Shown: one piece after another, positions 44,880 through 61,893 of the stretch
How positions within the stretch are numbered: the first letter of the stretch is position 1
Layout of the letters: the number at the start of each line of letters is the position of its first letter
Source: Maribacter sp. 4G9
GTDB taxonomy: Bacteria > Bacteroidota > Bacteroidia > Flavobacteriales > Flavobacteriaceae
Assembly (NCBI RefSeq): GCF_002742265.1
Contig: NZ_MDGL01000194.1
Location: 62,001 to 126,000, forward strand
Length of the DNA stretch: 64,000 nucleotides
Direction: 5' to 3'
The notes under the pieces: generated by a model
Told to the model about the DNA's origin: nothing
The model's database searches: none
What the model saw: the letters and a program-made list of their open reading frames with translations, nothing else
Translations under genes and position numbers: made by a program

Positions 44880-45175
44880 CCTGAAAATTGCATCATTTTA
44901 ATGATTCAATTTCAATTGAGAATTAGTTTGGCACATCATAAATTTTTCTATAATCTACTATAGAGAACAAAATAACAATTTATTCAAGTTTAATTTTACA
45001 ATAGTCATAAATGATGAAGATTTTAAACAATTTGTTTAGTACAAGATTTTTTGAGTAAATAATAAATCCATTTTTTAGCAATTTCTTTCTACAAATCGAG
45101 TTAAAAGCATAGTACATCGTTAAAAACAAATATTAATTGCAAACCCATAAGTTATTTTATAATCTTTGTATAGAT

Positions 45176-45994
45176 ATGGAAAAAATCACGGAATCATTAA
45201 CCGATAATCTTAAAACGGCTATAAACGCAGCAGTATCAGGTGGAATAGAAATCATGGAAATTTATAAAAAACCAAATTTCTCTTCTGAGTTAAAGCAAAA
45301 TAATTCTCCTTTAACGGAGGCCGATTTAGCAGCCAATAGGATAATCAACGAGTATTTGGAAAGGACAAATATCCCAATTATCAGCGAAGAAAATAAAAAT
45401 TTGGACTTTAGCGAACGAAAAAACTGGGATACGTGCTGGATTGTAGACCCTTTAGACGGTACAAAAGAATTTATAAAAAGAAATGGTGAGTTTACTGTGA
45501 ACATTGCGCTATGTCATTTTGGAAAACCTATTCTTGGTGTTATCTATGTTCCTGTTTCAAGAGAGTTATACTACGCCAACGTGAACGAAGGTGCTGCTTT
45601 CAAATCTATTTTAAATGAAAGTCATATGTTTTCAAAAGAACTTTATCGGGATGAAGACAGGATTTTCAGCAATAAATTGGATGAGGAAGTTGTTAGGGTC
45701 GTAGGTAGTCGATCCCACATGAACCAAGATACCCAAGAATTCATTTCAAAATTAAAAAATGATGTGAAAAATGTGGAAATTGTCTCAAAGGGAAGTTCCT
45801 TAAAATTTTGTCTAGTTGCTGAAGGAAAAGCTGATGTCTATCCAAGATTTGCCCCAACAATGGAGTGGGATACTGCGGCTGGGCATGCAATTTGCAATGC
45901 AACAGGGTTAAAAGTTATTTCACAGGAAACCAATGAAGAGTTACCTTATAACAAGGAAAACCTGTTAAACCCCTACTTTTTGGTAACCAAATAA
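45176..45994 (+). CDS. cysQ: 3'(2'),5'-bisphosphate nucleotidase
   Basis: A 272-residue inositol-monophosphatase-like enzyme. The metal-binding motif is DPLDGTKEFIKRNGEFTVNI, with WDTAAGHAI near the C-terminus. It hydrolyses the PAP left after PAPS-dependent sulfation. I start it at the ATG at 45176; a TTG at 45137 is less likely. It opens a five-gene run with DUF2061, cysC, cysD and cysN, each separated by 1-4 bp or overlapping. Here its PAP-removing role fits the sulfotransferases downstream. Confidence 0.93.
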   Translation: MEKITESLTDNLKTAINAAVSGGIEIMEIYKKPNFSSELKQNNSPLTEADLAANRIINEYLERTNIPIISEENKNLDFSERKNWDTCWIVDPLDGTKEFIKRNGEFTVNIALCHFGKPILGVIYVPVSRELYYANVNEGAAFKSILNESHMFSKELYRDEDRIFSNKLDEEVVRVVGSRSHMNQDTQEFISKLKNDVKNVEIVSKGSSLKFCLVAEGKADVYPRFAPTMEWDTAAGHAICNATGLKVISQETNEELPYNKENLLNPYFLVTK

Positions 45995-45998
45995 TTCC

Positions 45999-46448
45999 AT
46001 GGGAAAAATTTCGCGATTTATGGGGAAAATATCCCATAAAAGACATATTGCAAAAACTATAACATGGCGTTTGGTCGGGTCATTAGACACCATAATATTA
46101 TCCTGGATAATTACTGGCAATCCTACAACGGGAGTAAAGATTGGATTATCGGAAGTTTTCACAAAGATGATTCTTTATTATTTACACGAACGTGCGTGGG
46201 TAAAAGTAAAGATTCCAGAAAGCAGAAAAAGACATTTATTTAAAACAGTATCTTGGCGATTAATCGGTACTGTAGATACAATTATTGTCTCATGGATAAT
46301 TTCAGGTGACCCAATGACAGGATTACAGATTGGAGGCTTTGAAATAATAACCAAGATGATATTATATTACTTTCATGAAAGAGCGTGGTACCGTATAAAT
46401 TTCGGTTTGGATAAAATTATAAGGTCAAAGACATGGAAAAAAATTTAG
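45999..46448 (+). CDS. Tandem DUF2061 membrane protein
   Basis: A 149-residue protein made of two DUF2061 units. Unit 1 (about 16-65) has KTITWRLVGSLDTIILSWIITG and unit 2 (about 74-123) repeats it as KTVSWRLIGTVDTIIVSWIISG; both end in LYY(L/F)HERAW. Each unit has two membrane helices. The function is unknown. It lies between cysQ and cysC, and its last 16 bp overlap the cysC start. Its position suggests a link to sulfate handling, perhaps transport. A start at 46020 is also possible. Confidence 0.85.
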   Translation: MGKISRFMGKISHKRHIAKTITWRLVGSLDTIILSWIITGNPTTGVKIGLSEVFTKMILYYLHERAWVKVKIPESRKRHLFKTVSWRLIGTVDTIIVSWIISGDPMTGLQIGGFEIITKMILYYFHERAWYRINFGLDKIIRSKTWKKI

Positions 46449-47023
46449 TAACACAATCTTATAAAATCGGCATATCCGAAAGAAGATCCAAAAAAGGGCA
46501 TAATTCATTTTTAATATTTTTTACCGGCTTATCTGGATCAGGTAAATCCACTTTGGCAAATGCGCTAGAACAAAAATTATTTGATTTAAATATTAACACC
46601 TATGTTCTAGATGGGGATAATGTCCGACAAGGTATAAACAGTAATCTTACTTTTGAACCCAAAGATCGATCCGAAAACCTAAGAAGAATTGGAGAAGTAT
46701 CCAAGCTTTTTATTGATGCAGGCTTAGTAACTATTGCTGCGTTTATAGCACCCTACAGGAAGGACAGGGAGTTTATAAAAAAAACCGTTGGCGCAAATAA
46801 TTATGTAGAGGTTTTTGTGAATGCAAGTTTGGAGGTATGTGAAAAAAGAGATGTTAAGGGGCTTTATAAAAAAGCAAGAAATGGGGAAATAAAAAATATG
46901 ACTGGAATATCCTCACCATATGAAAAACCTTTAAACCCTAATATCGAAGTCTCGCATGAAAATACTGTAGAGGAATGCGTAAATATCATTTTTAATGAAA
47001 TTAAAAACCAATTAAAACTCTAA
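46433..47023 (+). CDS. cysC: Adenylylsulfate (APS) kinase
   Basis: A 196-residue kinase with Walker A GLSGSGKS (32-39), DGDNVRQGINSNL, the RSENLRRIGEVSKLFIDAG stretch and FIAPYRKDRE. It phosphorylates APS to PAPS, the sulfate donor for sulfotransferases. The gene overlaps DUF2061 by 16 bp and is followed after 1 bp by cysD. Confidence 0.96.
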   Translation: MEKNLVTQSYKIGISERRSKKGHNSFLIFFTGLSGSGKSTLANALEQKLFDLNINTYVLDGDNVRQGINSNLTFEPKDRSENLRRIGEVSKLFIDAGLVTIAAFIAPYRKDREFIKKTVGANNYVEVFVNASLEVCEKRDVKGLYKKARNGEIKNMTGISSPYEKPLNPNIEVSHENTVEECVNIIFNEIKNQLKL

Positions 47024-47024
47024 T

Positions 47025-47930
47025 ATGAGTAAATATTATTTAAATTATTTAGATGAACTTGAGGCAGAGGCTATTTATGTGCTTCGTGAAGTATGGGCCC
47101 AGTTTCAAAATCCTGTAATTCTTTTTTCAGGAGGTAAAGATTCTATCCTTGTAACACATTTGGCTAAAAAAGCATTTTATCCCGCCAAGATTCCCTTTCC
47201 ATTAATGCATGTAGATACGGGTCACAATTTCCCCGAAACCATAAAATTCAGGGATGACACTTTAAAAGAGCTTGGAGTAAACCTTATTGTCGGTTCAGTT
47301 CAAGAATCTATTGACCAAGGAAGGGTAGCGGAAGAAAAAGGAAAAAATGCTACGCGAAATGCACTACAAATAACCACCTTGTTGGATGCTATTGAAACCA
47401 ATAAGGTAGACTGTGCTATTGGTGGTGGACGAAGGGATGAAGAAAAGGCACGGGCCAAAGAACGGTTCTTTTCCCACCGTGATGATTTCGGGCAATGGGA
47501 TCCAAAAAATCAAAGGCCTGAGCTTTGGAATCTTTTTAATGGCAAACATTTTGAAGGAGAGCACTTTAGGGCATTTCCTATAAGTAATTGGACTGAAATG
47601 GACGTCTGGAATTACATCTGCAGAGAAAATATTGCCATTCCTTCTTTATATTTTGCCCATGAACGCGAGGTTGTCTGGAGAAGTGACTCTTGGATTCCAA
47701 ACTCGGAATTTCTAAAATTAGAAGAAGGAGAGAAAATAGTTACTAAAAAAATCAGGTTCAGGACTTTAGGAGATATTACTATAACCGGAGGCATTGAATC
47801 TGATGCAGATACTCTTGAAAAGATTGCCGAGGAAGTGTCGGGCATGAGACAAACCGAGAGAGGAAACAGAACAGACGATAAACGATCTGAAAGCGCCATG
47901 GAAGATAGAAAAAGACAAGGGTATTTTTAA
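47025..47930 (+). CDS. cysD: Sulfate adenylyltransferase subunit 2
   Basis: A 301-residue PAPS-reductase-fold ATP pyrophosphatase. The SGGKDS P-loop, the PLMHVDTGHNFPETI stretch, GGGRRDEEKARAKER and LWNLFNGKH are typical of CysD. It makes APS from ATP and sulfate together with CysN, whose gene starts one base after its stop. Confidence 0.97.
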   Translation: MSKYYLNYLDELEAEAIYVLREVWAQFQNPVILFSGGKDSILVTHLAKKAFYPAKIPFPLMHVDTGHNFPETIKFRDDTLKELGVNLIVGSVQESIDQGRVAEEKGKNATRNALQITTLLDAIETNKVDCAIGGGRRDEEKARAKERFFSHRDDFGQWDPKNQRPELWNLFNGKHFEGEHFRAFPISNWTEMDVWNYICRENIAIPSLYFAHEREVVWRSDSWIPNSEFLKLEEGEKIVTKKIRFRTLGDITITGGIESDADTLEKIAEEVSGMRQTERGNRTDDKRSESAMEDRKRQGYF

Positions 47931-47931
47931 A

Positions 47932-49197
47932 ATGAAAAAAATGGAACTAAACAACAACCAATTATTACGATTTACGACTGCCGGTAGTGTGGACGATGGG
48001 AAAAGTACCCTTATAGGCAGGTTGCTCTATGATTCAAAATCTATTTTTGAAGATCAATTACAGGCCATTGAAAATACCAGTCAAAAGAAGGGACATGAAG
48101 GTGTCGATTTAGCTTTGTTCACTGATGGGCTTAAAGATGAACGCGAACAGGGAATAACCATTGATGTAGCCTATAGATACTTTACAACACCTAAACGTAA
48201 ATTTATAATTGCTGATACACCAGGCCATATCCAGTATACTAGAAATATGGTTACTGGTGCATCCACTGCCAATGCTGCGATAATATTGGTTGATGCTAGG
48301 CACGGGGTTATCGAGCAAACTAAAAGACACTCTTTTATTGCTTCACTCCTACAAATTCCACATTTAGTTGTTTGTATCAACAAAATGGATTTGGTTGATT
48401 TCCAAGAAAAGGTTTATGATAACATCGTAGCCCAATATCAGGACTTTGCCTCAAAATTACTTGTACAAGATGTCCGTTTTATTCCTATGAGTGCTCTACT
48501 TGGAGACAATGTTGTAAATAAGTCGGAAAATATGACATGGTACCATGGAGCACCTTTACTACATACCTTAGAAACCATTCATATAAGTAGTGATTTTAAT
48601 AGCGTAGATGCTCGTTTCCCTGTACAGACCGTGTTACGACCCCAAAGAGAGGGTTTTATTGATTACCGCGGTTATGCCGGCCGCATATCCAGTGGTATCT
48701 TTAGACCTGGAGATGAGGTCACCGTTATGCCATCTGGTTTTACCTCAAAAGTTAAAACCGTAGAAGGTCCAAAGGGAGAATTAACCGAAGCGTATGCACC
48801 TATGTCTATTTCCATGACCCTTGAAGATGATATTGATATTAGTAGAGGTGATATGATTGTGCGTTCAAATAACAAACCAGAACCTGCACAAGACCTGGAA
48901 GTTATGCTTTGCTGGATGAACAATTCCTCCGCACGCCCAAGAGCAAAATATCTAGTAAGGCACACTACAAACGAGCAGACTGCGATGATAAAGGAAATAA
49001 TGTACAAAATAGATATAGAGACTTTAGGGCGTAACTTTGATGATAAGGAGATTCGAATGAATGACATTCTCAAAGTAAAAATAAGGACTACAAAACCATT
49101 AATGATTGACTCCTATAGGGAAAATAGGGCCACAGGTAGTTTAATTTTGATTGATGAAACAACGAATGAAACAGTTGCAGCAGGGATGATAATTTAA
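47932..49197 (+). CDS. cysN: Sulfate adenylyltransferase subunit 1 (GTPase)
   Basis: A 421-residue EF-Tu-like GTPase. G1 is GSVDDGKSTLIGR (19-31), then GITIDVAYRYF, DTPGHIQYTRNM and NKMDLVDF, followed by two beta-barrel domains. It ends soon after these domains, so no CysC kinase is fused, in agreement with the separate cysC gene. Its GTP hydrolysis drives APS synthesis. It is last in the cys run. No cysH, cysI or cysJ follows. Confidence 0.97.
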   Translation: MKKMELNNNQLLRFTTAGSVDDGKSTLIGRLLYDSKSIFEDQLQAIENTSQKKGHEGVDLALFTDGLKDEREQGITIDVAYRYFTTPKRKFIIADTPGHIQYTRNMVTGASTANAAIILVDARHGVIEQTKRHSFIASLLQIPHLVVCINKMDLVDFQEKVYDNIVAQYQDFASKLLVQDVRFIPMSALLGDNVVNKSENMTWYHGAPLLHTLETIHISSDFNSVDARFPVQTVLRPQREGFIDYRGYAGRISSGIFRPGDEVTVMPSGFTSKVKTVEGPKGELTEAYAPMSISMTLEDDIDISRGDMIVRSNNKPEPAQDLEVMLCWMNNSSARPRAKYLVRHTTNEQTAMIKEIMYKIDIETLGRNFDDKEIRMNDILKVKIRTTKPLMIDSYRENRATGSLILIDETTNETVAAGMII

Positions 49198-49467
49198 TTG
49201 ATAATTGATTTTTTGAGTAAACTTTATTTCAGAAAAAAGATTAGGATATTCTGATAGGTAAGTCCTTAAAATAAAATTAAAAAATTCATCTTAAGATATG
49301 GAAAAATAATTTGATATCAACAAAATTGGTTAATCCCTGAATTTTAGAAATTAAACTCTTTTAATACTGGGTTTTCATAAATCCCTTTTTCATCTAATAT
49401 TATTTATACTTTTTCATAAATACTAATTCTTAAATTTTAATTAGTAAACAACAATTTCTCTTTCATA

Positions 49468-50376
49468 ATGAAATATATATACATAACAGGGCGTGGTCGC
49501 AGTGGCAGTACAGTGATTGATGCCATGTTGGGTAACTCCAAATCCATTGAAAGTGTGGGCGAATTAGTCTCCGGAATGGGAAGAATTAATGCAATGTGCA
49601 GTTGTGGAAAAATGATGAAGGATTGTAATTATTGGATAGAAATTCGAAATGATTTCGAATCAAAATTTTCTAAAAACTGGGATGAATTTTCTAGGGATAC
49701 TGTAAAATCCGGACATATCAAATACTTTCTATCCACATTATTTAGCAATTCCACATTTTATAAGGTCTTGGCAAAAGACACCCAATTATTTACCAAAATA
49801 TTATTACAAGGGGTAGGTAAAAAAGCTCTTCTAGATTCGTCAAAAAATCCTAATAGGGCATTATTCTTAGCCAAATTTTATTCAGACTCTAAAATTATAC
49901 ATTTGGTAAAACACCCTGATGGTGTAGCTGCAAGCAAATATAAATTTATCGGAAGAGGTAAGGGTTACAAATTTTTAAGAAGAACTTATCTTAATCCCAA
50001 ACTTGCGCCATTATATATGACCGTAGAGGCTATTTCTTGGATGGTAGGAAACTCCATGATAGGGCTTATAAAATGGATTAAGCCGGATAAGGTTATGATT
50101 GTAAAATATGAAGATTTTGGGTCAAGACCTGAATTTATATTCAAGAAGCTTTCGAGGTTCTTAGATATAGACCTCACTGAAATTCAGAATGCCGTAACCA
50201 ATGGTCATCCTTTGACTTTTGGCCACACAATTGGTGGTAACGGTGTTAGAAACGAAGAAACATTTGTTTTCAACACAACCAAAGGGAAAAAAAGACCAAT
50301 GCCAGCTTTTTATAAGTTGTTAATTAGAATATTTTGTTGGCCTCTTATGCTTCTTTATGGGTATAAAATTATTTGA
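49468..50376 (+). CDS. PAPS-dependent sulfotransferase, CSCG type
   Basis: A 302-residue sulfotransferase. The 5'-phosphosulfate loop is TGRGRSGSTVIDAMLGN (about 7-23), and the probable 3'-phosphate region is LVKHPDGVAASKY. A cysteine cluster, CSCGKMMKDCNYW (C44, C46, C53), is also found in the protein at 58097. Such enzymes transfer sulfate from PAPS to a sugar hydroxyl or amine. The substrate is presumably the capsule polymer or its repeat unit. It is the first gene after cysN, 270 bp downstream, with no visible terminator between. Confidence 0.85.
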   Translation: MKYIYITGRGRSGSTVIDAMLGNSKSIESVGELVSGMGRINAMCSCGKMMKDCNYWIEIRNDFESKFSKNWDEFSRDTVKSGHIKYFLSTLFSNSTFYKVLAKDTQLFTKILLQGVGKKALLDSSKNPNRALFLAKFYSDSKIIHLVKHPDGVAASKYKFIGRGKGYKFLRRTYLNPKLAPLYMTVEAISWMVGNSMIGLIKWIKPDKVMIVKYEDFGSRPEFIFKKLSRFLDIDLTEIQNAVTNGHPLTFGHTIGGNGVRNEETFVFNTTKGKKRPMPAFYKLLIRIFCWPLMLLYGYKII

Positions 50377-50680
50377 TTTTATCGAATTTTTTTCAGCTTA
50401 GACTGGATTTCCACTAAGCAATATAAAAAATATTTATACTTACTACTTCTAATAGCTTATTTTTTGAGTAGAGAAATGACCTGACACTAAAGAAGCCTTT
50501 GTTATTTAACAATTTTTGAATATTATTTTTTGAATTAATTATTGCACATACTCAATATAAGTATAACGCTGTAGCCTATAATCGATAAGGAGGTAATTTA
50601 TATTTGATAATTTGACAAATTTGGTCCTAAATCAAAATGTAATTTTAATGAAATGTTTAAGAACTTAAGTCACTTTAACT
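50377..50680. other. Intergenic gap before the lyase-like gene
   Basis: This 304 bp region between convergent genes is very AT-rich. I see no gene, no clear stem-loop and no repeat. Confidence 0.45.
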
Positions 50681-51832
50681 TTAGTCCCTACCAGGAACAA
50701 CATCCTCATAAGTTCCTGGACCTTTCCAAACCCTATATTCATCAAAATAAACATTCCCTTTTGGAGTATTTTTAGAGGACCAATAAACTCCTATTGTGTG
50801 CTTAATCTCACCTGTGTATGGAATACCACTTACATTGGCATAACGATAAGTTGTAGTACCAGTCTTATCAACAATTTTTTCACCGTTAACCCATATTTCC
50901 AAAAATCCATCCGTAGGGTCTAACTCCCAATGTATAACAATATCAATCCATTCATCCAACTTATAATTAAAATAAGTATTTTCAGTACCTGTACTCGCAC
51001 CACTACTTTGTATTTCATCGACCATCTTTTTATCAGTTGAAGTAGCAAAATACATTTTACCTTGAGGTCCTTGTCTTAAAGTCACAGGGTTGACACCTCC
51101 ATAATCAGGAGAACCTTCCGGGCGCATATTTCTAAACTGTGCATAAACCCTAGAATTTTCGGCAGCCTCCTTAACCTTAATGGAAAAGCCGATCCAATGT
51201 TCGTCCCAGCTTGATACTCTATTTCTGTGAAGCTCATTTCTGGTAATATTGTCATTATAATCACCTAGCCATACTGCGCGTTTACCTTTTCTAGCATCAT
51301 TTGTTACTCTAGGCTCACCTCTATTGGATTCATATTCCCATTTGTTATCACCTGAACCGGTTAAATTCCATTGGTCCGTTTCAAAATCTGAATACCAAAT
51401 CAGTTTGCCCTTATTTGTAATAGTCACACTTCCAGTTTCCGTACTAACAGATGAGTCATCATTAACAGCTTCAGTAGTATAACTAAAAGTATCCGAAAAC
51501 TCTTCTGCTTCTGTAACCTCAACCCTTGGCACATAAGTCAAGGTATTATTTTCATTTATAGTCACATTACCATTTTCGGGAGTAGAAGTTTCGGAAATTA
51601 CAACATTTCCCAATTCATTGAACCGGTCATTATTTAAAACGTCCAATACTATGCTATTGGAACTTTTAAGAAAAAATTCGTCATTAACTACATATTTTTG
51701 AATATCAATACTTTGATCTCTGTTAATGACATAGTCAGATAGTAAGTCCGCATCCTTACTACAGGACTGAAAAAAAAGAATAAGACATAAAAGACAAGCC
51801 ATGCGTGTTGGATTTAGTAGGTTTCGCATCAT
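50681..51832 (-). CDS. Lipoprotein with Ig-like and heparin-lyase-like domain
   Basis: A 383-residue lipoprotein (lipobox FQSC, C24). Residues about 45-140 look like a cadherin/Ig-type repeat (DVLNNDRF, NGNVTINENNTLTYVP). Residues about 145-380 resemble the polysaccharide lyase fold of heparin lyase I and relatives: LIWYSDFETD, NELHRNR, HWIGFSIKVKE and YFDEYRVWKG. Such proteins cleave uronic-acid polymers. It is probably on the outer surface and may trim or release the locus' own polymer. Family choice is by eye. Confidence 0.65.
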   Translation of the reverse strand: MMRNLLNPTRMACLLCLILFFQSCSKDADLLSDYVINRDQSIDIQKYVVNDEFFLKSSNSIVLDVLNNDRFNELGNVVISETSTPENGNVTINENNTLTYVPRVEVTEAEEFSDTFSYTTEAVNDDSSVSTETGSVTITNKGKLIWYSDFETDQWNLTGSGDNKWEYESNRGEPRVTNDARKGKRAVWLGDYNDNITRNELHRNRVSSWDEHWIGFSIKVKEAAENSRVYAQFRNMRPEGSPDYGGVNPVTLRQGPQGKMYFATSTDKKMVDEIQSSGASTGTENTYFNYKLDEWIDIVIHWELDPTDGFLEIWVNGEKIVDKTGTTTYRYANVSGIPYTGEIKHTIGVYWSSKNTPKGNVYFDEYRVWKGPGTYEDVVPGRD

Positions 51833-52362
51833 GGTAAAGTTAATTAAACAAGATTTAGGAATTTAAAAAATTGGGTTTTTTTTATTTAACGCTGAAATTT
51901 TACAATAACGATGTAAATGTGTGTTTTTTCGATGAACTGCAGTTATTGATCCTCAATATTACGAGTATAGATTACTTTTTGGATTAAAAAAAAATCTGTT
52001 TTCGATAAAAAGCATTTTTTTTTAACATTTCATTATATTTTGCCTTTTTTAATAAACTTTCTACCTATGCAATAAATTAAAAAGGATTAAAAATTGCCAA
52101 CTTAATTTTGGCTTCTAGGTTTTGGATTGTCAAAGCAATAAATATGCTCTATCGGTAACCAGAAAGCTGATTGTTTTAAAATAGAATTTGACAAATCATA
52201 TTTAAGGTGGAGTTTTAACAACATTTATTGAAACTATTCGTTCATTAATGGCGTACTAAAAGCCGTGATTACTAAATTTGATGCCACGAATTATTCTAAA
52301 TAACTGTACCTCGTTAAGAGTACTTGGTAATTTTTTCGTCTCTTTTATAAACACTAGTTTAA
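51833..52362. other. AT-rich intergenic region
   Basis: This 530 bp divergent region contains many A and T runs and no credible gene, repeat or promoter pair that I can support. It should hold the start signals for the lyase-like gene and the GT4 gene. Confidence 0.4.
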
Positions 52363-53499
52363 ATGAATCTTCTACATATTAATGCATACTATATAGATAA
52401 TCATCTTTATTCCCAGTTGTACAAAACCTTGGACTCAGAACTTCAGCAAAAAGTTTACATTCCTATCAAAAAAGACAGAGTAGCCGAAAATGTAGTAGAG
52501 TTAAAACAGGGTGAACTTATATTTGAACAGGTAATCAAACCTGTTCATAAGTACAATTATTTCAAAAAAATTAAAGAAATAACCTCTTCGCTTATCGAAA
52601 AGAACGTGCATGAAAACATTGATTTTATTCATGCGCACAATCTATTTACTGATGGTGTAATTGCCTATAACTTAAAAAAGAAATTTGGAATCAAATACAT
52701 AGTTGCGATAAGAACCACTGATATAGAATTACAATATAAATATATGTATCATAGAAGGGCTAGGGTTAAGAAGGTACTTGAAGATGCAGAACAAATTATT
52801 TTTATTTCCCCTAATTACAGAGATAAATTCTTAACTATGTTAAGTGAATCCTTTATTGCAAGAATAAAAAATAAGATAAAAATTGTTCCAAATGGAATAG
52901 ACGATTTCTGGCTTAACAATCAAAAAAAACCAACTGCTAAATCTCTAGAAAAGAAAGTTCACCTATTATACGTAGGACAAATCATGCAAAGGAAAAATGT
53001 TTTTCCTTTAATGGAAGCAATAAATTTATTGAACACAAAAAAAGGGGAAGAAAAATATGATTTAACAATAATAGGTGGGGCAAACACTTACGAAAAAGAG
53101 TTTTACAATTCATTTCTTAGCACTATAAAACAATTTAATTGGGTCAAGTACAAGGGTGTAATAAAAGACAAGAAAATGCTACTTCAAGAATATAGAAACT
53201 GCGATATTTTCGCCATGCCAGCCAAAGGTGAACTATTTGGGCTTGTATACATTGAAGCTTTGTCCCAAGGAAAGCCCGTTATATATGCAAAGGGTGAGGG
53301 GATTAATGGATTTTTGGAAGGGAAACAAGTGGGAAAATCGGTTGACCCAGACGACTTAGAAGATATTTGTGATGGAATTATATATTTAAAGGAAAATTAT
53401 ATTTCGTTCAATGATTTTTCAGAAGTTGTTGAACCTTTTAATTGGAACAGAATAGCTAACCTTTATAAATCAATGTACCAGAAAGATGAACAGGATTGA
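52363..53499 (+). CDS. GT4 glycosyltransferase
   Basis: A 378-residue GT-B glycosyltransferase. The C-terminal domain has KIVPNGIDDFW, LLYVGQIMQRKNVF and the donor-site stretch PAKGELFGLVYIEALSQGKPVIYA with the conserved glutamates. It adds a sugar during repeat-unit assembly; the sugars are unknown. Its end overlaps the next gene by 14 bp. Confidence 0.88.
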   Translation: MNLLHINAYYIDNHLYSQLYKTLDSELQQKVYIPIKKDRVAENVVELKQGELIFEQVIKPVHKYNYFKKIKEITSSLIEKNVHENIDFIHAHNLFTDGVIAYNLKKKFGIKYIVAIRTTDIELQYKYMYHRRARVKKVLEDAEQIIFISPNYRDKFLTMLSESFIARIKNKIKIVPNGIDDFWLNNQKKPTAKSLEKKVHLLYVGQIMQRKNVFPLMEAINLLNTKKGEEKYDLTIIGGANTYEKEFYNSFLSTIKQFNWVKYKGVIKDKKMLLQEYRNCDIFAMPAKGELFGLVYIEALSQGKPVIYAKGEGINGFLEGKQVGKSVDPDDLEDICDGIIYLKENYISFNDFSEVVEPFNWNRIANLYKSMYQKDEQD

Positions 53500-54742
53500 A
53501 AAATTTGTCTATGACCAAGTAAAAAGTAATCCAAGGGTAAAACAGAGTATACGCAATTTATACCAATCCTTTTTTGATTTTCTGCCAAACAAAAAGAATT
53601 TTTCAATCAACGAGATTGATTTTAAGGAAGGGTTTTTCTATGGTTTTCATGATATTTCTCCTTTTTCTAAGGATGATTCCAAGCTCTTGGCCAATAAATT
53701 GACCATACCTTTAAGAATGCCTGAATTAGGTGATGTTTTGGAGGTAGGTTATTTTAATCTAGAAAATGGCTTAAGTGATTTTGTCAAAATTGATGCTACT
53801 CACGCTTGGAACTATCACAAAGGCTGCAGATTACAATGGCTTAAAGAAAATATTGTTATTTATAACGATGCAGATGGAGACGAACTAATTTCCAGTATTT
53901 ATGATATAAATTCAAATATCAAAAAATCATTATCCTTTCCAATTGATTCTGTTTCACCTTGCGGAGAATATATTGCAACCTTCAGTTACGGCAGACTTGA
54001 AAAATTAATGCCTGGCTATGGTTACCGAACTTTTGATGATGATAATTATATACAGGAAAAATTACCTGAAAATACTGGTTTGTTTTTAGGAAACACCAAT
54101 GAAAACACTAAAGAACTGCTTGTTAGCTTAAGTCAATTATCCAAAATTGGCGAATTAAATCCTGAAGATTTAAATTGTCATCATTATGTAACCCATTCCC
54201 TATTTTCTCCTGATGGTAAATATATTTCCTTCCTACATAGGTGGGTAGATATCAACTATACTTCTAAAAGACATACGAGATTACTAACAATTAACTTGGA
54301 ATCAAGAGAGTGTTATATTTCCCCAACGAATGATATGGTTTCACATTATGTGTGGAATGATCAAAATCAAATCATAGCCTATTCCAGAATAGGCGATAAA
54401 GACAGTCATGTTTTATTTGAGGAACCAACTTTACAAAAATATAGAAGAATTGCGTATCCCGCACTAAATTCTGACGGTCATCAGAGTTTTATTTCCAGTA
54501 ATTCATTTGTAACCGATACCTATCCAGATAAATTTAGAATGGCCAATTTGTACAAAGTTAATTGTATTACCAATGAAGTTACTCTGTTGGCTAAACTTAA
54601 CTCTTATAAAAAATTTCAATCACTACCTCCCGACAGACATTGGTGTTGCGATTTGCACCCCAGAATGAACCCAAAGGGCGATACAGTATGTTTTGATTCT
54701 GTGCACACTGGTAAGAGAGCTATTTGCGTTATGAAGATTTAA
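53486..54742 (+). CDS. Beta-propeller protein, oligogalacturonate-lyase-like, unknown role
   Basis: A 418-residue protein without signal peptide. It has WD40/TolB-like strands such as FSPDGKYISFLHRW and a C-terminal DLHPRMNPKGDTVCFDS, which together recall PL22 oligogalacturonate-lyase-like propellers. Several histidines (NCHHYVTH, HWCCDLH) could bind metal. It overlaps the upstream GT4 gene by 14 bp, so it belongs to repeat-unit synthesis or control. I cannot say whether it is an enzyme or a binding protein. Confidence 0.55.
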   Translation: MNRIEKFVYDQVKSNPRVKQSIRNLYQSFFDFLPNKKNFSINEIDFKEGFFYGFHDISPFSKDDSKLLANKLTIPLRMPELGDVLEVGYFNLENGLSDFVKIDATHAWNYHKGCRLQWLKENIVIYNDADGDELISSIYDINSNIKKSLSFPIDSVSPCGEYIATFSYGRLEKLMPGYGYRTFDDDNYIQEKLPENTGLFLGNTNENTKELLVSLSQLSKIGELNPEDLNCHHYVTHSLFSPDGKYISFLHRWVDINYTSKRHTRLLTINLESRECYISPTNDMVSHYVWNDQNQIIAYSRIGDKDSHVLFEEPTLQKYRRIAYPALNSDGHQSFISSNSFVTDTYPDKFRMANLYKVNCITNEVTLLAKLNSYKKFQSLPPDRHWCCDLHPRMNPKGDTVCFDSVHTGKRAICVMKI

Positions 54743-54758
54743 TTCTTGGTTTTATTTG

Positions 54759-55487
54759 CTAAGAAAATAAATATCTAAACTCAAAAATTAGATAATAGCC
54801 TATTTTATCCAAATAATTTGTTTTCCGCCTCATTCTTTCTAAGTCTCTTTCTATGGAATGATTCAAGTAATTTTTATAATCACCTATTTCACCTTTTCTA
54901 AAAAACCATTTTCGATCGGATTTTTCCCTTACCTTTTTAATACTGTTGAGTTCAATTATCCGCTTTATTTCTTCATCATTTATTGATACTCCCAGAAATT
55001 CCGTAAATCTCTTTAATTCTTCTGCCGTATCGCTTTTTAATGACTCAAAGGACGAGTGAAAAACATTCTCACTATAAGGAGCCCAATTCTCATTGTATTT
55101 AATTAGTTGAACTGCTTTATATCGACCTACTAACCAATAATAGGTACTAAAGGAAGGTTTAAAAGCACGAACATTAATGAAATGATTATAATGGGATACA
55201 AGAGCATCCCTAATATCACGATTGATCATAAAAATCTTCACATCATCCACATTACTTGTAAGTATGTCAATTTGCTTTCTTTTATAGATATGTGCCTTTG
55301 CTAAAAAATGTTTTGTTTTTATCTCATTTGATTTGATAATATCGGCCAATCTATTTTGATCAATAAAACTGTCTTGATCTTTACTTCTAAACGACTTTGG
55401 TAATGGCTGAAATTCCAATACATTTTTTAATAAGTTTCTTTGCCAGGTTGAACCTGATTTAAATGCCCCATTTGCTATTACTAACAT
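54759..55487 (-). CDS. PAPS-dependent sulfotransferase, cytosolic (SULT-like) type
   Basis: A 242-residue sulfotransferase. The N-terminal loop NGAFKSGSTWQRNLL binds the 5'-phosphosulfate, MINRDIRDALVSHYNHF holds the 3'-phosphate site, and the end of the family motif appears as RKGEIGDYKNYL. It is short but complete. It converges on the beta-propeller gene with 16 bp between, and is on the same strand as three more polysaccharide genes. Confidence 0.88.
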   Translation of the reverse strand: MLVIANGAFKSGSTWQRNLLKNVLEFQPLPKSFRSKDQDSFIDQNRLADIIKSNEIKTKHFLAKAHIYKRKQIDILTSNVDDVKIFMINRDIRDALVSHYNHFINVRAFKPSFSTYYWLVGRYKAVQLIKYNENWAPYSENVFHSSFESLKSDTAEELKRFTEFLGVSINDEEIKRIIELNSIKKVREKSDRKWFFRKGEIGDYKNYLNHSIERDLERMRRKTNYLDKIGYYLIFEFRYLFS

Positions 55488-55634
55488 AGAATCTATATTG
55501 TTTTGTTACTTGTAAAATTACTTTTAGAAATTTAATGTCTACTCTGCTATTTAAGATTTGTACTTTAGTACAATTGAAATTACCCAGACAAAACTTTTAA
55601 TTAAAAAAACACCAAGTTTAAATAATTGTTGTTT

Positions 55635-56591
55635 CTATTTTAAATGAATTGTGCAAAACAATTTATTCTCACCACTACCAGAGGGTTTACCATAAGTTTC
55701 CGAATACCACTTATTAAAATACCCGCCATATTGATTTGCCAGTTCTAAAATCATATCGTGGTACTTTTCTTTTAATAAGTTTAAAACCAATGGAGGACAA
55801 TCCAATTCTATTGATTTATTTACAATCTCTTTGGTCGGCGAATCATCTCCCTTAAGAGATTCTTTAAAACCTTCATTAGTTTCCTTACCGGTAGTGATAA
55901 ACTGAATCACTTCCTCAAGCAATTGTTCCGGTGACTCAATAATCGCATCATAGAAACCTAGTAAAATTTGTTCTTTTGGAAAGACACTACTAAAGTTCTC
56001 TATTGTTCTTAAATAGTTGGACCTAAGTTCTTGACCCTCCCCCTCTATGAACTCAATAATTTCCTTTTCAGTAACATCATCAAGTGTAAAGCCTTTTATT
56101 TTCTTCTTTATATGTCTAAAATGTGACCATGCTCTATCCACTGGGTTTCTAAGCATAAAAATTAGTTTTGCATTTGGTGATAAAGCATACATACGAGAAA
56201 CATCTTCCTTATTTAACATTGAGTAACTTGGGGTGATTTCACCCTTTGTTCCGGAATATCTATTAAATATGGATTTATACCATTCATCGTTGTAGTTTGA
56301 AAAATACCATCTTAAGAAGAAACCAACATTTTGGAAGTTTCCCCTAAATATGGACGAAAAGATTGCTCTACCCGCCCTTTCAAGATATGATAAGCTGAAA
56401 ATTCTATCTTTTACTTTAGATTTAGATAAGAAATTAGGTGATAAATATTTGGTATTCCTATCAAAATAATGAAATTCCTTAACCGGAGGAATTGAAAACC
56501 CGGGCGTTTTAGACAAGTTATAATACAACCAGGATGTACCTGCTTTTTGAGCCCCAATTCCCCAAAAATTAATAGGTTGATTATTTTTCAT
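55635..56591 (-). CDS. PAPS-dependent sulfotransferase, heparan-type
   Basis: A 318-residue sulfotransferase with the opening FWGIGAQKAGTSWLYYNLS, the PPVKEFHYFD stretch and MLRNPVDRAWSHFRH as the 3'-phosphate site, a layout like heparan-sulfate O/N-sulfotransferase domains. It differs clearly from the other three sulfotransferases here, so several positions of the polymer may be modified. Confidence 0.9.
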   Translation of the reverse strand: MKNNQPINFWGIGAQKAGTSWLYYNLSKTPGFSIPPVKEFHYFDRNTKYLSPNFLSKSKVKDRIFSLSYLERAGRAIFSSIFRGNFQNVGFFLRWYFSNYNDEWYKSIFNRYSGTKGEITPSYSMLNKEDVSRMYALSPNAKLIFMLRNPVDRAWSHFRHIKKKIKGFTLDDVTEKEIIEFIEGEGQELRSNYLRTIENFSSVFPKEQILLGFYDAIIESPEQLLEEVIQFITTGKETNEGFKESLKGDDSPTKEIVNKSIELDCPPLVLNLLKEKYHDMILELANQYGGYFNKWYSETYGKPSGSGENKLFCTIHLK

Positions 56592-56642
56592 GATTAAATT
56601 AGATTTTATATTTTTTATTTCAGGAGTTCTTAGCTCTATATT

Positions 56643-58100
56643 TTATTTTCTATTTAAGGCTTTATCCAAAACCGTATGCAAATAGTGACCAAATATTTTT
56701 GGTCTAAATTTTAGAAGCGTTATGAATACTATTATTAAAAACAGAAGGAAAACTATAAACATTGAAACATCTGCAATATTCCATAAGTTAAATATGGATT
56801 TGTAAATCACAATTATTATTGCAACGTATAAACCTAACTTTATGCCGGCCAGAAGGGGTTCAAAAAAATATTCCTTCATTGAACCTTCAAATACATTTTT
56901 TACAAGTATTATCATCATCAAATAATTTATGAAATAGCTTATAACAATACCGACTGCGGCACCATTAATCCCATAGAAATAACCTAATGAACCCGATATT
57001 ATTACTATCAGTGCAGTAAAAATGTACTTACGCGTTACGTTCTTATATATTAAACCCTTGGACCTTATTACTGCATCAGTCATTTTTCCGGAGTTACTAA
57101 ATGTTAGAACAAGAAACATTATTTGTAATGGTAATATGGCTTCATCCCAATTAGTACCCATAAGAATTTGTACAATTTCTGCAGAAAAGAAGATTAAAAA
57201 AACTGTTAACGGAATCATTATTGAATTACTTACACCAATTCCAAACTTATATATTTTAATAAGTTTTTCATTCTCGTCTTGTATTTCCGACATAACCGGG
57301 AACATTACCTTATTGATTATACTCGCTAAAAATTGACTTGGTAGTTCCTTAATCCTGGATGTTCTTTCATAAATTCCTAATATATCTTGAGCAAAGATTT
57401 TACCAAACACAAGATTTAGACCCTTACTTGACAAAAAATTACTAAAAGACAATAACATCATTCCAGATCCAAAACCAAACAACTCCTTCGCTTCGGTATA
57501 GTGAAATTTTAGACTTATTTTAATAGGCGCAAAATAGAACATTGTTATCGTGCTGATTAACGAGCTTAGCAGTGTAGCTACAACAAGGGACCAAACACCA
57601 TAATTTTTCGTTGCCAAATAAACACCAAAACTATAACCAATTAAGTTAGCGCAAATATCTACCAAAGAAGCATTTTTAAAACGAAAGTTCTTCAACAACA
57701 GGTTTACTGAAATGTTATTCAAAGCTAGTAACAATAGGTTAAGGGAAGAAACTTTAATTAGGTCATCCAATCGACTATCGTTATATGTTGCAGCGATATA
57801 CGGAGAAAGGAAATAGAAACAAACATATAGCACAAGTCCAATAAGAATGCTCGTTTGTAGGGCCCCATTAATATGATTATTATTAATTTCCTTACGTTGT
57901 ATCAGGGCAGACCCCATACCTCCTTGTATAAAGATATTACCAATACCGATAGTACCATTTACTATAGCCATTAACCCATAATCTTCTTTCAACAAGAGCC
58001 TGGTCATTATGGCAAAATATACAAGTTGCAGTACGTTTAGGGAAATAACCGATAAAGATTGCCACTTACCTGCATTCTTGATTTTCTTGCTGAGACTCAT
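56643..58100 (-). CDS. wzx: Wzx-like oligosaccharide flippase
   Basis: A 485-residue membrane protein with 12-14 predicted membrane helices, of the polysaccharide_synt / MVF-like type. The stretch KEDYGLMAIVNGTIGIGNIFIQGG is typical of the group. It flips lipid-linked repeat units to the periplasm. It overlaps the sulfotransferase at 58097 by 4 bp. Confidence 0.9.
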   Translation of the reverse strand: MSLSKKIKNAGKWQSLSVISLNVLQLVYFAIMTRLLLKEDYGLMAIVNGTIGIGNIFIQGGMGSALIQRKEINNNHINGALQTSILIGLVLYVCFYFLSPYIAATYNDSRLDDLIKVSSLNLLLLALNNISVNLLLKNFRFKNASLVDICANLIGYSFGVYLATKNYGVWSLVVATLLSSLISTITMFYFAPIKISLKFHYTEAKELFGFGSGMMLLSFSNFLSSKGLNLVFGKIFAQDILGIYERTSRIKELPSQFLASIINKVMFPVMSEIQDENEKLIKIYKFGIGVSNSIMIPLTVFLIFFSAEIVQILMGTNWDEAILPLQIMFLVLTFSNSGKMTDAVIRSKGLIYKNVTRKYIFTALIVIISGSLGYFYGINGAAVGIVISYFINYLMMIILVKNVFEGSMKEYFFEPLLAGIKLGLYVAIIIVIYKSIFNLWNIADVSMFIVFLLFLIIVFITLLKFRPKIFGHYLHTVLDKALNRK

Positions 58101-58954
58101 CCAATTTTATTAAGTATGTAACCAAGAAAATTAAAAAAGGGGTTCTTTTTAGCTACATCATGCCATCCATCATCATACTTTATTTTTCTTTTCTCAAAAC
58201 GATTGGGTGTACCGGCAATGGTGTGATCGTCGTTCAATTCCATATAATCAGGAACGCTAAATGAATTAAAACCAATAAATTCAGACATGTCATTAAATAT
58301 TTCTTGGGGGTTTTTGAAAAAGTCTTCATAATTTAAATTATAAATATCCTTTTTCTTTACACTTCTAAGCAAAAACCAACAATTTATTCTATGAATATAA
58401 TTAGCTAGTAATAATTTTAATAGACTAAGGTTCTCTTTATCGTATTTTCTTCTCCATTTTTGTCTGGATATAGATACGGCACGTAAATCCCTTTTTAAAT
58501 AAATAAATTTAAAATTAAATTGTGAGTTTCTATAAAGTGAAATTCCGTGGTACGCCTCCTTAGAGGAATCGACTAATATGCTACAATGAGTAATGTCAAA
58601 AACTGCATTATAAATATTATTCATAAGAGTAGCAACATGTTTATTTTCCTCTTTTATCAGCTCCTTGTCCGGTCCTTTGGGATAGATGATTTTCGTGTTT
58701 TTAATAACTTCTAAATCCTTTAATTTAAGTCTATTAAAAATTTTTTTCCAAAAATCACAATCGTTCAAGTTTGAACCGCATGAACAATTCCAATCCCAAG
58801 CACTACCTGGGCCTTTTTTGTGCAAATACCCTCCTAAAAGATAGGTTTCTCCAACGGAAATAATTTCTGTAGATTTTGATAGGATATTTTCAATAAGTGT
58901 AGACCCAGAACGCTGATTGGACATTATATAAACAATCGTTTGTCTTCGCTTCAT
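58097..58954 (-). CDS. PAPS-dependent sulfotransferase, CSCG type
   Basis: A 285-residue sulfotransferase. The P-loop is MSNQRSGSTLIENILSKS and the 3'-phosphate region is YLKRDLRAVSISRQKWRR. The cysteine cluster CSCGSNLNDCDFW (C57, C59, C66) matches the one in the protein at 49468, so the two form a subfamily. It overlaps the flippase gene by 4 bp, tying sulfation to repeat-unit assembly. Confidence 0.86.
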   Translation of the reverse strand: MKRRQTIVYIMSNQRSGSTLIENILSKSTEIISVGETYLLGGYLHKKGPGSAWDWNCSCGSNLNDCDFWKKIFNRLKLKDLEVIKNTKIIYPKGPDKELIKEENKHVATLMNNIYNAVFDITHCSILVDSSKEAYHGISLYRNSQFNFKFIYLKRDLRAVSISRQKWRRKYDKENLSLLKLLLANYIHRINCWFLLRSVKKKDIYNLNYEDFFKNPQEIFNDMSEFIGFNSFSVPDYMELNDDHTIAGTPNRFEKRKIKYDDGWHDVAKKNPFFNFLGYILNKIG

Positions 58955-59035: not shown

Positions 59036-60181
59036 TTAGCCTTTCAAGCATTCGTTTTGACTTTTCATCATCCCTTTTATAAAACTCAATATGGCAGCAG
59101 CCCTCTCTCCTATTTCAAAATTTTTAGAGGCCCTCAAAGCATTATCGCTCATTTCTTTGGCAACCTTTTGATTATTAACTATAGAATCAATTGCAATCCT
59201 TATGGCATCTACATCCAATGGATCAACTAAAATAGAATACGAAGAATCACATTGATCTCTTACCTCAGGTATATCCGAAGATACAACCGGTAATCCGCAT
59301 GCCACAGCCTCAGCAATGGCGTTACAGGAGCCTTCTTTTTGTGTCGGGAGCACGAATAAATCTGCAGCCGAAAGAATCTCAGGTATTTTATAGGACGGCA
59401 AACTACCTTTAAATACTACTGATTTACCTTCCGGATTTTGAGGTCCACTCCCGATGAAAAGAATGCCAACATTATCCAATTCATTAACCGCGTCCAAAAC
59501 ACGTAAAGGACCTTTATGGTGCATAAATCTACCCACAAAGGCTATTAACTTAACATCCATAGGAAGTTCGTACTTTACTCTCATTTCTTTTTTATCCCGA
59601 CTATAAAACTTATTAAGGTCAACAGCATTGGGTTTCATTAAAATCCGCTCCGGAGTAACTCCATACCCGATTAACTGATCCTTCAATTTGTTGGAGACGG
59701 CGACAAAACCATTTATTCTTTTAACACTTCGATTAAAGTAACTTTTTGGATATCGTTTTGTAAAACTTGTTAAATCGCTTTCGCCTATAGCCGTAAATAC
59801 CGGTTTTGCATAATTGTTAAGTGCATTTACTGCCACAATACCATTCATTAGAAAATGTGCATATACAAAATCAAATTCTATATTATTATTTTTAACAGTC
59901 TTTTGAATAGCTCTAATTTGGGCTAATTCTGCAATTCTATAGGTATTGAACGAACCTAATTGTATACTGGAAAGCGAAAAGACCTTTGGTCGATAGACCG
60001 TACATAACTCTTCCCCATAAGACTTTACTTTTTTGACTTTAACAGACATAATATTGTCCGGAGAAATAACGGTAACCTTATGCCCTAGTTTACAAAATTG
60101 CTGTATCAAATTATAGACAAACACCCCTCTCGTAGGATGTTTTAAAGATGGATAATTATTAGATACGACTAATATTTTCAT
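59036..60181 (-). CDS. GT4 glycosyltransferase
   Basis: A 381-residue GT-B enzyme. It starts MKILVVSNNYPSLKHPTRGVF and has the donor-site region KEGSCNAIAEAVACGLPVVSSD with the conserved glutamates, preceded by AFVGRFMHHKGPLRVLDA. It is one of three GT4 enzymes in the locus. It follows the polymerase gene by 5 bp. Confidence 0.9.
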   Translation of the reverse strand: MKILVVSNNYPSLKHPTRGVFVYNLIQQFCKLGHKVTVISPDNIMSVKVKKVKSYGEELCTVYRPKVFSLSSIQLGSFNTYRIAELAQIRAIQKTVKNNNIEFDFVYAHFLMNGIVAVNALNNYAKPVFTAIGESDLTSFTKRYPKSYFNRSVKRINGFVAVSNKLKDQLIGYGVTPERILMKPNAVDLNKFYSRDKKEMRVKYELPMDVKLIAFVGRFMHHKGPLRVLDAVNELDNVGILFIGSGPQNPEGKSVVFKGSLPSYKIPEILSAADLFVLPTQKEGSCNAIAEAVACGLPVVSSDIPEVRDQCDSSYSILVDPLDVDAIRIAIDSIVNNQKVAKEMSDNALRASKNFEIGERAAAILSFIKGMMKSQNECLKG

Positions 60182-60186
60182 TGAGA

Positions 60187-61374
60187 CTATATCTTTTTGG
60201 ATTTTACTTTATTCTCATCAAGAATATGAATAGTGGACCCAATTAAGACTGCAAAAAAGAACCAGAATGTTGTTTTGCCAATACTACCACCTTGTTTGGA
60301 CATATTAAAAACTACGATTACAAACAATACAAGATTTAGAGAGTCACCATACTTTTTAAAATGAAGAAATAACAATTTGCCCAAACGGGCTAAAAAAGTA
60401 ACAAACAAAATTATTCCAGGAAGACCACATGCAATATATACATAGAGAAAAATGTTATGGGGGTTCATAAATGAACCTGAATAGGCGAACATTCTGGGTT
60501 TAACTCCTTCAAAACCGGCACCCATAATAATATTATCCCGAATAATATTATAGGCAGCTTCCCAAAGAACATTTCTACCAATATCACCAGATTCTACCGT
60601 ATCAGCAAATCTTTCCGCTATAACCGGATTTGTTTCCAATAAATAAGTTATTAGTACAACAGAACCCAATACTCCAAAGATAATAACGGCCAGCTTATTA
60701 AGAGCTCCCGTCCTCCTAAAATAGAGCAACACACCAAGCCCTAAAAACATGGAAACGAAAGCTCCTCTGGAGCCAGACACTGCAATTAGACTAATAAAAG
60801 GAATACACATTAGTATTATTATAATCGATCTTTTAATTGAAAAATTGTTTATAAGTTTTGAAATGGTAATCAAAAAAGCAATGGAAGCCTTTGCTCCCAT
60901 AACATTAGGATTTTCCTCAAAAATTAGCAATCTACCATTTTCGTATGTAACACCCTTGCCAAGTGATACCAGCAAAAAAACCAACAGCATACTGGTAATA
61001 TAACTATTTAAAACAATGGTTAAAGTTTTTGGTTTTATATGAAGGTGAGCTGCAATAAATAGCATTAATACTATTAAGAGAAGTGCTCTATAATTATAGG
61101 CAAATTTTAATTCCTCGACATATTCAGAGTTAAAAACGGAAAAAAAGAAGCCTACAAAAATTAGGAGAAATAGAGGAATTGCAAATCTTTTAAAGATTGA
61201 AAAACTAAAATTCCTTCCCACTAGCGGCACCCAACTTCCTAAGTATAGCACCGTCGACAAATAGGTTACCGAATATGAGCCCGTAAAACTGAAGGGGTCC
61301 CAATTTTCAAAAGTAACTGAGAAAACCAACAAATATAAACAATAATCGTTTATAATATTAAAAAGTTTTATCAT
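60187..61374 (-). CDS. O-antigen ligase / Wzy-type polymerase
   Basis: A 395-residue membrane protein with about ten helices and a large periplasmic loop near residues 250-310. It has the Wzy_C pattern: VSGSRGAFVSMF in the middle and the GAGFEGVKPRMFAYSGSFMNP region with PHNIFLYVYIACGLPG. With the flippase, it points to Wzx/Wzy-dependent assembly. Polymerase and ligase cannot be told apart by sequence, but no other candidate polymerase is seen. Confidence 0.85.
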   Translation of the reverse strand: MIKLFNIINDYCLYLLVFSVTFENWDPFSFTGSYSVTYLSTVLYLGSWVPLVGRNFSFSIFKRFAIPLFLLIFVGFFFSVFNSEYVEELKFAYNYRALLLIVLMLFIAAHLHIKPKTLTIVLNSYITSMLLVFLLVSLGKGVTYENGRLLIFEENPNVMGAKASIAFLITISKLINNFSIKRSIIIILMCIPFISLIAVSGSRGAFVSMFLGLGVLLYFRRTGALNKLAVIIFGVLGSVVLITYLLETNPVIAERFADTVESGDIGRNVLWEAAYNIIRDNIIMGAGFEGVKPRMFAYSGSFMNPHNIFLYVYIACGLPGIILFVTFLARLGKLLFLHFKKYGDSLNLVLFVIVVFNMSKQGGSIGKTTFWFFFAVLIGSTIHILDENKVKSKKI

Positions 61375-61893
61375 TAATTACATTAAGATAATTAAAATGT
61401 TTGGCAAAATAAGTTAAAAAAAAAAGAGCTACCCAACATATTGGACAAAATACATTTATTGATCGAATAATTAATAATTGATAGGCATTAATAAAGCTAT
61501 ATCTACTCGTGTAACCAAGCTATTATTTCTTTATTTAAGTATGTCTATTTCATTAAAATTTTAACGCATTCCTTAAAATATTGTCAAATGGAAATATTCT
61601 TCCTCAGTAATTTCCAATTTTACCATGAAACCAGTCTAACAAAAAACGCTAAGCTTTCACTCTAGATTTTTAAACTTTTTACAAAAAGTAATCAATACTT
61701 AATTCGTTAGCAGTTAAAGCGTGAATTATAAACTCAATTAGGGTTATTGATATACTACTTATCATATTCTTTTCACTAGTGCCATTTATATAAAATAGAT
61801 TTTAAAACTTTTCGTTTGTGTATTATTGTAACTACATTTAATAAATACTTTTTTAAACCTATTAACAAATAGTACTTGAAGTTTGAAAACCAT
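61375..61893. other. AT-rich divergent intergenic region
   Basis: This 519 bp gap lies between the leftward polymerase operon and the rightward GT4 gene. Only weak -7-like fragments are seen (such as TTCGTTTG near 61810). No gene or repeat is supported. Confidence 0.4.

Follow-up and report, generated by a model that had tools for sequence, protein, structure and literature searches.

The locus described here lies in a window of 64,000 nucleotides of Maribacter sp. 4G9, a member of the Flavobacteriaceae (positions 62,001 to 126,000 of contig NZ_MDGL01000194.1; G000:C193:62001-126000 in the genome survey), whose genome is a 99.98% complete draft of 4.6 Mb in 196 contigs. It combines a sulfate-activation operon, cysQ-DUF2061-cysC-cysD-cysN, with four sulfotransferase genes and a gene set for a surface polysaccharide. 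The products of the operon are predicted to make adenosine 5'-phosphosulfate (APS) and 3'-phosphoadenosine 5'-phosphosulfate (PAPS) and to remove 3'-phosphoadenosine 5'-phosphate (PAP). The genes of the operon are as follows:

45137..45994, + strand: CysQ, 3'(2'),5'-bisphosphate nucleotidase, removing PAP (TIGR01331, 255.6 bits, cut-off 228.8; PF00459)
45999..46448, + strand: two-domain DUF2061 protein, annotated as a predicted membrane protein (PF09834, two stretches)
46433..47023, + strand: CysC, APS kinase, making PAPS (TIGR00455, 248 bits, cut-off 138.7)
47025..47930, + strand: CysD, ATP sulfurylase subunit (TIGR02039, 412.9 bits, cut-off 396.6)
47932..49197, + strand: CysN, GTPase subunit of ATP sulfurylase (TIGR02034, 557 bits, cut-off 336)

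The five genes are spaced by no more than four bases, and the end of the DUF2061 frame overlaps the start of cysC. CysD, CysN, CysC and CysQ are contiguous and all score above the curated cut-offs, which identifies the run as a PAPS-synthesis operon. The longest frame of CysQ begins with a TTG codon at 45137; an in-frame ATG at 45176 is an equally likely or likelier start. The G+C content falls from about 0.40 at 38-44 kb to 0.31-0.36 over the sulfation part, and equally low stretches are found elsewhere in the window. Scans for promoters and terminators gave counts no higher than in shuffled sequence.

The four sulfotransferases, ST1 to ST4, are encoded downstream of the operon:

49468..50376, + strand: ST1, Sulfotransfer_3 (PF13469, 53.1 bits, cut-off 27), with a GRGRSGST loop
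54759..55487, - strand: ST2, Sulfotransfer_1, resembling cytosolic sulfotransferases (SULTs) (PF00685, 63.1 bits, cut-off 22)
55635..56591, - strand: ST3, sulfotransferase (PF00685, 48.7 bits; PF13469, 47.6 bits)
58097..58954, - strand: ST4, Sulfotransfer_3 (PF13469, 38.2 bits, cut-off 27), with an NQRSGST loop

Each of them scores above the gathering threshold of one or both of the Pfam families PF13469 and PF00685 and carries near its N-terminus a loop that, read by eye, has the form of a 5'-phosphosulfate-binding loop. ST2 matches cytosolic sulfotransferases in the PDB (best E 7e-8). The PDB matches of ST3 are the sulfotransferase 3rnl (4e-13) and the heparan sulfate enzyme HS 3-OST-3A1 (7e-5), the nearest named enzymes thus being heparan sulfate 3-O-sulfotransferases, and ST1 and ST4 match weakly (CurM polyketide sulfotransferase, E about 0.005). 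These four genes are the only matches to PF13469 or PF00685 in the whole genome, the search having been confined to these two families (PF03567, PF14269 and other sulfotransferase families were not searched). The arrangement reported in the first-pass annotation of this DNA was accordingly borne out: the curated families and the short gaps confirm one tight run of cysQ, DUF2061, cysC, cysD and cysN, and the Pfam scores confirm four PAPS-type sulfotransferases amid a flippase, glycosyltransferases and a lyase-like lipoprotein.

Apart from this operon, no source of APS and PAPS was detected in the genome, and cysteine synthesis would appear to depend on it too. CysD is present in a single copy (the matches to PF01507 are CysD and CysH only), a single copy of CysC was found, and no Sat was found in the genome; the single-copy result covers CysD and CysC, the copy number of CysN not having been searched. 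A second match to PF01583, on contig C24, was considered as another APS kinase and rejected, as it fits shikimate kinase better (45.5 vs 26.2 bits). Contig C39 encodes a 210-residue CysH whose gene directly adjoins that of sulfite reductase; next to them lie an Rrf2-type regulator and genes for a tetrapyrrole methylase, a pyridine-nucleotide oxidoreductase and a homocysteine methyltransferase. No cysD was found near this cysH, either in its neighbourhood or in the genome search with PF01507. Since there is one CysD, one CysC and no detected Sat, while cysH and sulfite reductase exist, the operon must also feed sulfate-based cysteine synthesis. The first-pass annotation had described a dedicated module and had noted that no sulfate reduction gene is present, which is true of the stretch and not of the genome. 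The genome search that it had proposed for a cysH/cysI/cysJ set led to cysH and sulfite reductase on C39 with no separate cysD, and with no separate activation set for cysteine the word dedicated had to be given up. It had further named, as an outcome that would speak against it, a genome in which these cys genes are the only supply for cysteine synthesis and the sulfotransferases act elsewhere; they are indeed the only detected supply, and the second half of that outcome was not encountered.

The association between CysC and sulfotransferases was followed through the family in the same 199 genomes (198 genera) in every search. CysC was counted at E <1e-30; of 98 genomes with any CysC match, this threshold left 87 and removed 11 as weak (E 7e-5 to 9.8e-4). 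PF13469 or PF00685 was found in 73 of these 87 genomes vs five of the 112 others (Fisher p about 2e-33). When strong CysH matches (E <1e-50) were considered as well, a sulfotransferase was found in 50 of the 60 genomes with both CysC and strong CysH, in 23 of the 27 with CysC and no strong CysH, and in none of the 65 with strong CysH and no CysC. Hence, it was concluded that CysC in this family marks sulfation rather than reduction, 14 genomes excepted. Physical linkage was observed too: of the 68 genomes with both CysC and PF13469, at least 33 have a PF13469 gene no more than 25 kb from cysC (at least 32 of 67 when the genome of the window is left out, where uniform and independent placement would give 3.1). 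Twelve of at least 150 rows were omitted from this distance count (five second fragments of genes already counted, six in frames of about 840-870 residues and one short separate match), and none of them adds a genome within 25 kb. In several genomes of the family, matches to PF13469 or PF00685 lie inside open frames of about 840-890 residues (e.g. G040:C1:510175 and G117:C20:541813), longer than ordinary sulfotransferases.

The nearest named relatives of the CysC belong to Allomuricauda, Muricauda, Pricia and Croceitalea and are 69-72% identical. The order cysQ-DUF2061-cysC-cysD-cysN is kept in five of the eight named CysC loci, namely two from Allomuricauda and one each from Pricia, Muricauda and Croceitalea. 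In Muricauda myxillae, the operon is followed downstream by a sulfotransferase, an MBOAT acyltransferase, an unassigned protein, a PF14099 lyase-like protein, a flippase and a second sulfotransferase. In Pricia antarctica, ASST-type and PF13469 proteins follow cysN, and glycosyltransferases and a flippase lie on the other side; the ASST-type (PF14269) protein (L116:12929-14263) is encoded directly after cysN and adjoins the PAPS-type sulfotransferase. Of 30 cysC loci (L015-L044, that of the window included), 26 have a DUF2061 frame next to cysC and on its strand, and 24 of these 26 proteins measure 137-171 residues, the other two 66 and 81. Short DUF2061 proteins are encoded directly upstream of cysH in the loci read, mostly where cysDN is local. 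The idea that DUF2061 is a required sulfate importer was considered and found unsupported, there being four SulP-family permeases elsewhere in the genome (contigs C155, C174, C7 and C42); the literature matching 'DUF2061' concerns, by title or abstract, iron and antibiotics and not sulfate.

The genes that surround the operon and the sulfotransferases are listed below:

31936..34299, - strand: Wzc-like co-polymerase/kinase (PF02706, PF13807, AAA_31; TIGR01007 over cut-off)
34350..35126, - strand: Wza-like export lipoprotein (PF02563)
35180..37114, - strand: CapD/PseB-like dehydratase (Pfam, NCBIfam)
37111..38247, - strand: DegT/LegC-like aminotransferase (Pfam, NCBIfam)
38568..39965, + strand: UDP-sugar dehydrogenase (Pfam, NCBIfam)
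39962..40981, + strand: epimerase (Pfam, NCBIfam)
40960..42294, + strand: TviB-like UDP-GlcNAc dehydrogenase (Pfam, NCBIfam)
50681..51832, - strand: lyase-like lipoprotein with an Ig-like domain and PF14099 (PF14099, 49.7 bits, cut-off 29.9; PF17963, 27.7 bits)
52363..53499, + strand: GT4 glycosyltransferase (PF00534)
53486..54742, + strand: 418-residue locus protein without a family
56643..58100, - strand: Wzx-type flippase (PF13440, 250 bits)
59036..60181, - strand: GT4 glycosyltransferase (PF00534, 83 bits)
60187..61374, - strand: Wzy-type polymerase, O-antigen ligase-like (PF04932, 55.1 bits, cut-off 31.7)
61876..63093, + strand: GT4 glycosyltransferase (PF13579, PF00534)
63120..63737, + strand: initiating sugar-phosphate transferase (PF02397, 204.8 bits)

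Wzx, Wzy, Wzc, Wza and an initiating transferase are all present, Wzx and Wzy as family-level assignments, so that the complement is that of a Wzx/Wzy-dependent locus; as judged from its genes, it fits the synthesis of an acidic polymer. The exact sugar names of the nucleotide-sugar genes (35180..42294) score below the NCBIfam equivalog cut-offs. The PAPS genes and the sulfotransferases are thus co-located within a polysaccharide cluster, as in clusters of the Vibrio KMM 8419 type (see below). Just upstream of cysQ, at 42569-44879, are encoded an acyl-CoA-dehydrogenase/flavin-monooxygenase-like protein and a FemAB/GNAT-type protein, which may provide extra modification of the polymer. The protein at 53486-54742 gave no Pfam family at E 0.001 and no useful PDB match; a homologue of it, split in two pieces, was observed near cysC in another locus (L108). 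A congener without sulfation genes (G075) encodes a counterpart of the lyase-like lipoprotein that is alike in the N-terminal 90 residues only (53%) and has the Ig-like domain and no PF14099; the lipoprotein is only a candidate marker of sulfation.

The best reading of these data, to which we give a probability of about 0.75, is that the locus sulfates its Wzx/Wzy surface polymer and that the operon also serves cysteine synthesis. The locus would make a Wzx/Wzy-type surface polysaccharide with acidic and probably amino sugars, and would sulfate this same polymer. We infer that CysDN forms APS from sulfate and ATP, that CysC phosphorylates APS to PAPS, that ST1 to ST4 transfer sulfate from PAPS to presumed acceptor sugars of the lipid-linked repeat units in the cytoplasm, before these are flipped by Wzx, and that CysQ clears the PAP. 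The CysH reductase and the sulfite reductase, whose genes lie elsewhere, would draw on the same PAPS pool, as no further ATP sulfurylase or APS kinase was found, and the operon would so be a hub shared by the sulfation of the capsule and the supply of cysteine rather than a dedicated side branch. The earlier proposal that this bacterium sulfates its own surface polymer survives in its main part. Sulfation of the polymer is most likely, as all PF13469 and PF00685 genes of the genome lie here, the operon recurs beside sulfotransferases, and CysC predicts sulfotransferases in 199 genomes; exclusive use of the operon for this purpose was not upheld.

Several points weigh against this reading. The sulfate of the polymer is predicted from genes; the AlphaFold model of ST1 has a mean predicted local distance difference test score of 49, too poor to use; and the other three of the eight named CysC loci (from a Flavobacteriales bin, a Bacteroidota bin and Pseudomonas) have no adjacent DUF2061 or CysQ. 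In the co-occurrence and distance counts, each genome, and each sulfotransferase gene of a genome, enters as an independent observation, and the counts are uncorrected for descent. Moreover, both sulfotransferase families are missing from 14 of the 87 CysC genomes, and CysC by itself is therefore no proof of sulfation. These 14 genomes would agree with the view that the cys genes are plain assimilatory activation genes that lie beside a capsule locus by chance, with the sulfotransferases as unrelated passengers, and so would the finding of only one CysD and one CysC in a genome with cysH and sulfite reductase. This view is nevertheless unlikely, since the whole run cysQ-DUF2061-cysC-cysD-cysN recurs beside sulfotransferases in other genera, CysC tracks sulfotransferases, and none of the latter occurs in the 65 genomes where strong CysH is found without CysC.

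It is likewise improbable that the sulfate of PAPS goes not to the exported polymer but to another target, for instance a small molecule, a lipid or a protein. The resemblance of ST2 to cytosolic SULTs, which act on small molecules, and the weak resemblance of ST1 and ST4 to the CurM polyketide sulfotransferase would suit such a target; however, all four genes are interleaved with the flippase, polymerase and glycosyltransferase genes, and the nearest named enzymes of ST3 act on heparan sulfate. A strictly dedicated sulfation module, with cysteine drawn from thiosulfate or organic sulfur and cysH idle or otherwise used, was rejected for this genome on its one CysD, one CysC and lack of a detected Sat and has little probability in view of the open cysH frame and the sulfite reductase retained in a conserved operon, although sulfation-only use probably occurs in relatives, as the 27 CysC genomes without strong CysH, 23 of them with sulfotransferases, indicate.

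The preferred reading, a shared hub for sulfation and cysteine supply, draws further support from the congener G075, in which the assimilation operon runs Rrf2 - DUF2061 - cysH - cysD - cysN - sulfite reductase, and neither CysC nor a PF13469 or PF00685 match was found in that genome. Between the same neighbours, DUF2061-cysH-cysD-cysN of the congener (L075:9686-11192) is represented by a lone cysH in the genome of the window (L003:9788-11109). Rrf2 and sulfite reductase of the two genomes are 83% and 85% identical, CysH only 53%. The capsule locus of the congener retains the left arm CpsB-Wzc-Wza-CapD-DegT (61-75% identical) up to a contig break. A second contig, which presumably joins the first, carries a UDP-sugar dehydrogenase (67%), an Ig-domain lipoprotein-like protein, a polymerase, a flippase and glycosyltransferases, and it gave no match above 45 bits to the cys genes or sulfotransferases of the window.

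CysH neighbourhoods were compared in 81 of the 125 genomes with strong CysH, that of the window included; these were chosen and are not a random sample, four genomes with CysC (G074, G076, G118 and G150) and 40 without it being left out. Two main forms of a CysH loop were distinguished. No cysD lies within 7 kb of cysH in any of the 27 loci with an SFG loop, and 25 of these belong to CysC genomes, the two exceptions being genomes that are 87% and 73% complete. All 39 loci with a local cysD have an NFRPYE loop, as do 23 of the 25 CysC-free genomes in the comparison, and the five loci with other loops have no local cysD. Some loci stop at contig edges (e.g. G147, G066, G030, G105 and G037), and missing neighbours are weak evidence there. 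This distribution suggests that CysH proteins with NFRPYE use APS, because CysC cannot make PAPS in CysC-free genomes, and that those with SFG use PAPS.

The following observations make such a division less certain, and with it the use of PAPS by the CysH of this genome. Ten of the 49 NFRPYE loci have no local cysD (eight in CysC genomes, two not), so that the coupling of loop type to neighbourhood is incomplete, and the SFG loop is largely a matter of shared descent. In independent pairs taken from the CysH tree, the loss of a local cysD went together with the presence of CysC in 4.4 of six pairs on average, with 0.1 opposite (median p 0.125), which is not significant. The CC..CxxC cysteines were found in none of 21 aligned CysH proteins, both loop types alike, so that iron-sulfur cysteines as a test of APS or PAPS specificity did not separate the types; the NCBIfam models, applied to five SFG and five NFRPYE proteins, did not separate them either. 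The CysH of the window's genome scores higher with the PAPS reductase model than with the APS model, below the cut-off, and the same holds for the five CysH tested from CysC-free genomes. It is possible, though we hold it only tentatively and as somewhat less probable than its opposite, that the assimilation operon lost DUF2061-cysD-cysN, that its cysH was swapped in place for a PAPS-drawing type, and that the capsule operon took over primary sulfur metabolism in one branch of the family. In that case DUF2061 would accompany sulfate activation in general, in a single-domain form with cysH and in a double-domain form with cysC. These data give no direction for the exchange of cysH.

Bacterial loci of a comparable kind have been described. 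The structure of a sulfated capsule of Vibrio sp. KMM 8419 was solved by nuclear magnetic resonance, and the authors regard PAPS genes and sulfotransferases in one cluster as a hallmark (PMC11641403). As in Maribacter, cysC, cysN and cysD stand with sulfotransferases in the capsule cluster of this strain; three sulfotransferases are present, one of which the authors assigned to the O-antigen part (PMC11641403). In the Vibrio, the cys genes are present as second copies and an ATP-binding cassette (ABC) transporter serves for export (PMC11641403), whereas the Maribacter locus has the only copies of CysC and CysD found, a Wzx/Wzy system, and an operon that includes DUF2061 and CysQ. Cobetia marina KMM 1449, for which the structure of a sulfated capsule was determined, likewise has cysN/cysC, cysD and cysQ in one operon inside a capsule cluster, but its CysN/CysC is bifunctional, the operon includes a sulfate permease, export is of the ABC type and, in the available text, DUF2061 is not mentioned (PMC11766843). 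The synechan (xss) cluster of Synechocystis PCC 6803 is similar in being of the Wzx/Wzy type, with two sulfotransferases, a sulfated polymer and genetic evidence; it differs in that it is cyanobacterial and that, in the available text, PAPS is not mentioned and the cluster description holds no PAPS genes (PMC8205485). In Pontiella sulfatireligans, a sulfated exopolymer was detected and a putative cluster for a sulfated, glycosaminoglycan-like polymer resembles the present one in having a sulfotransferase amid glycosyltransferases and a transaminase, but it has a single sulfotransferase and, in the portion available, no PAPS operon is described (PMC7356697). A review speaks of six bacterial genera as reported makers of sulfated polysaccharides (PMC11625862), and in Shark Bay mats the sulfotransferase that was searched for was absent from all Bacteroidetes bins (PMC9723792). 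Among the matches listed in the open-licence literature, none describes such a locus in Flavobacteriaceae by its title or abstract. The remark in the first-pass annotation that the trait is rarely described in detail in bacteria has therefore been partly overtaken, by structures with loci for the Vibrio (PMC11641403) and Cobetia (PMC11766843) and by genetics for synechan (PMC8205485). The kind of locus is already known; the present one varies it by the Wzx/Wzy setting in this family, by the DUF2061 gene in the operon and, above all, in that no second set of sulfate-activation genes was detected in the cell.

That 73 of the 199 genomes have both CysC and a sulfotransferase suggests that a large share of the genera in one family carry genes for sulfated polymers of their own. 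Sulfated polymers in general are usually associated with algae, cyanobacteria and animals, and what flavobacteria are chiefly known for is the consumption of sulfated sugars from algae. With its four different sulfotransferases, the locus is also a source of new enzymes that sulfate sugars. If the shared hub is real, genes needed for cysteine would sit in a capsule locus that varies between species of one genus. If, in addition, the takeover by the capsule operon took place, the type of capsule would be tied to sulfur nutrition, and the synthesis of cysteine would depend on a variable capsule locus.

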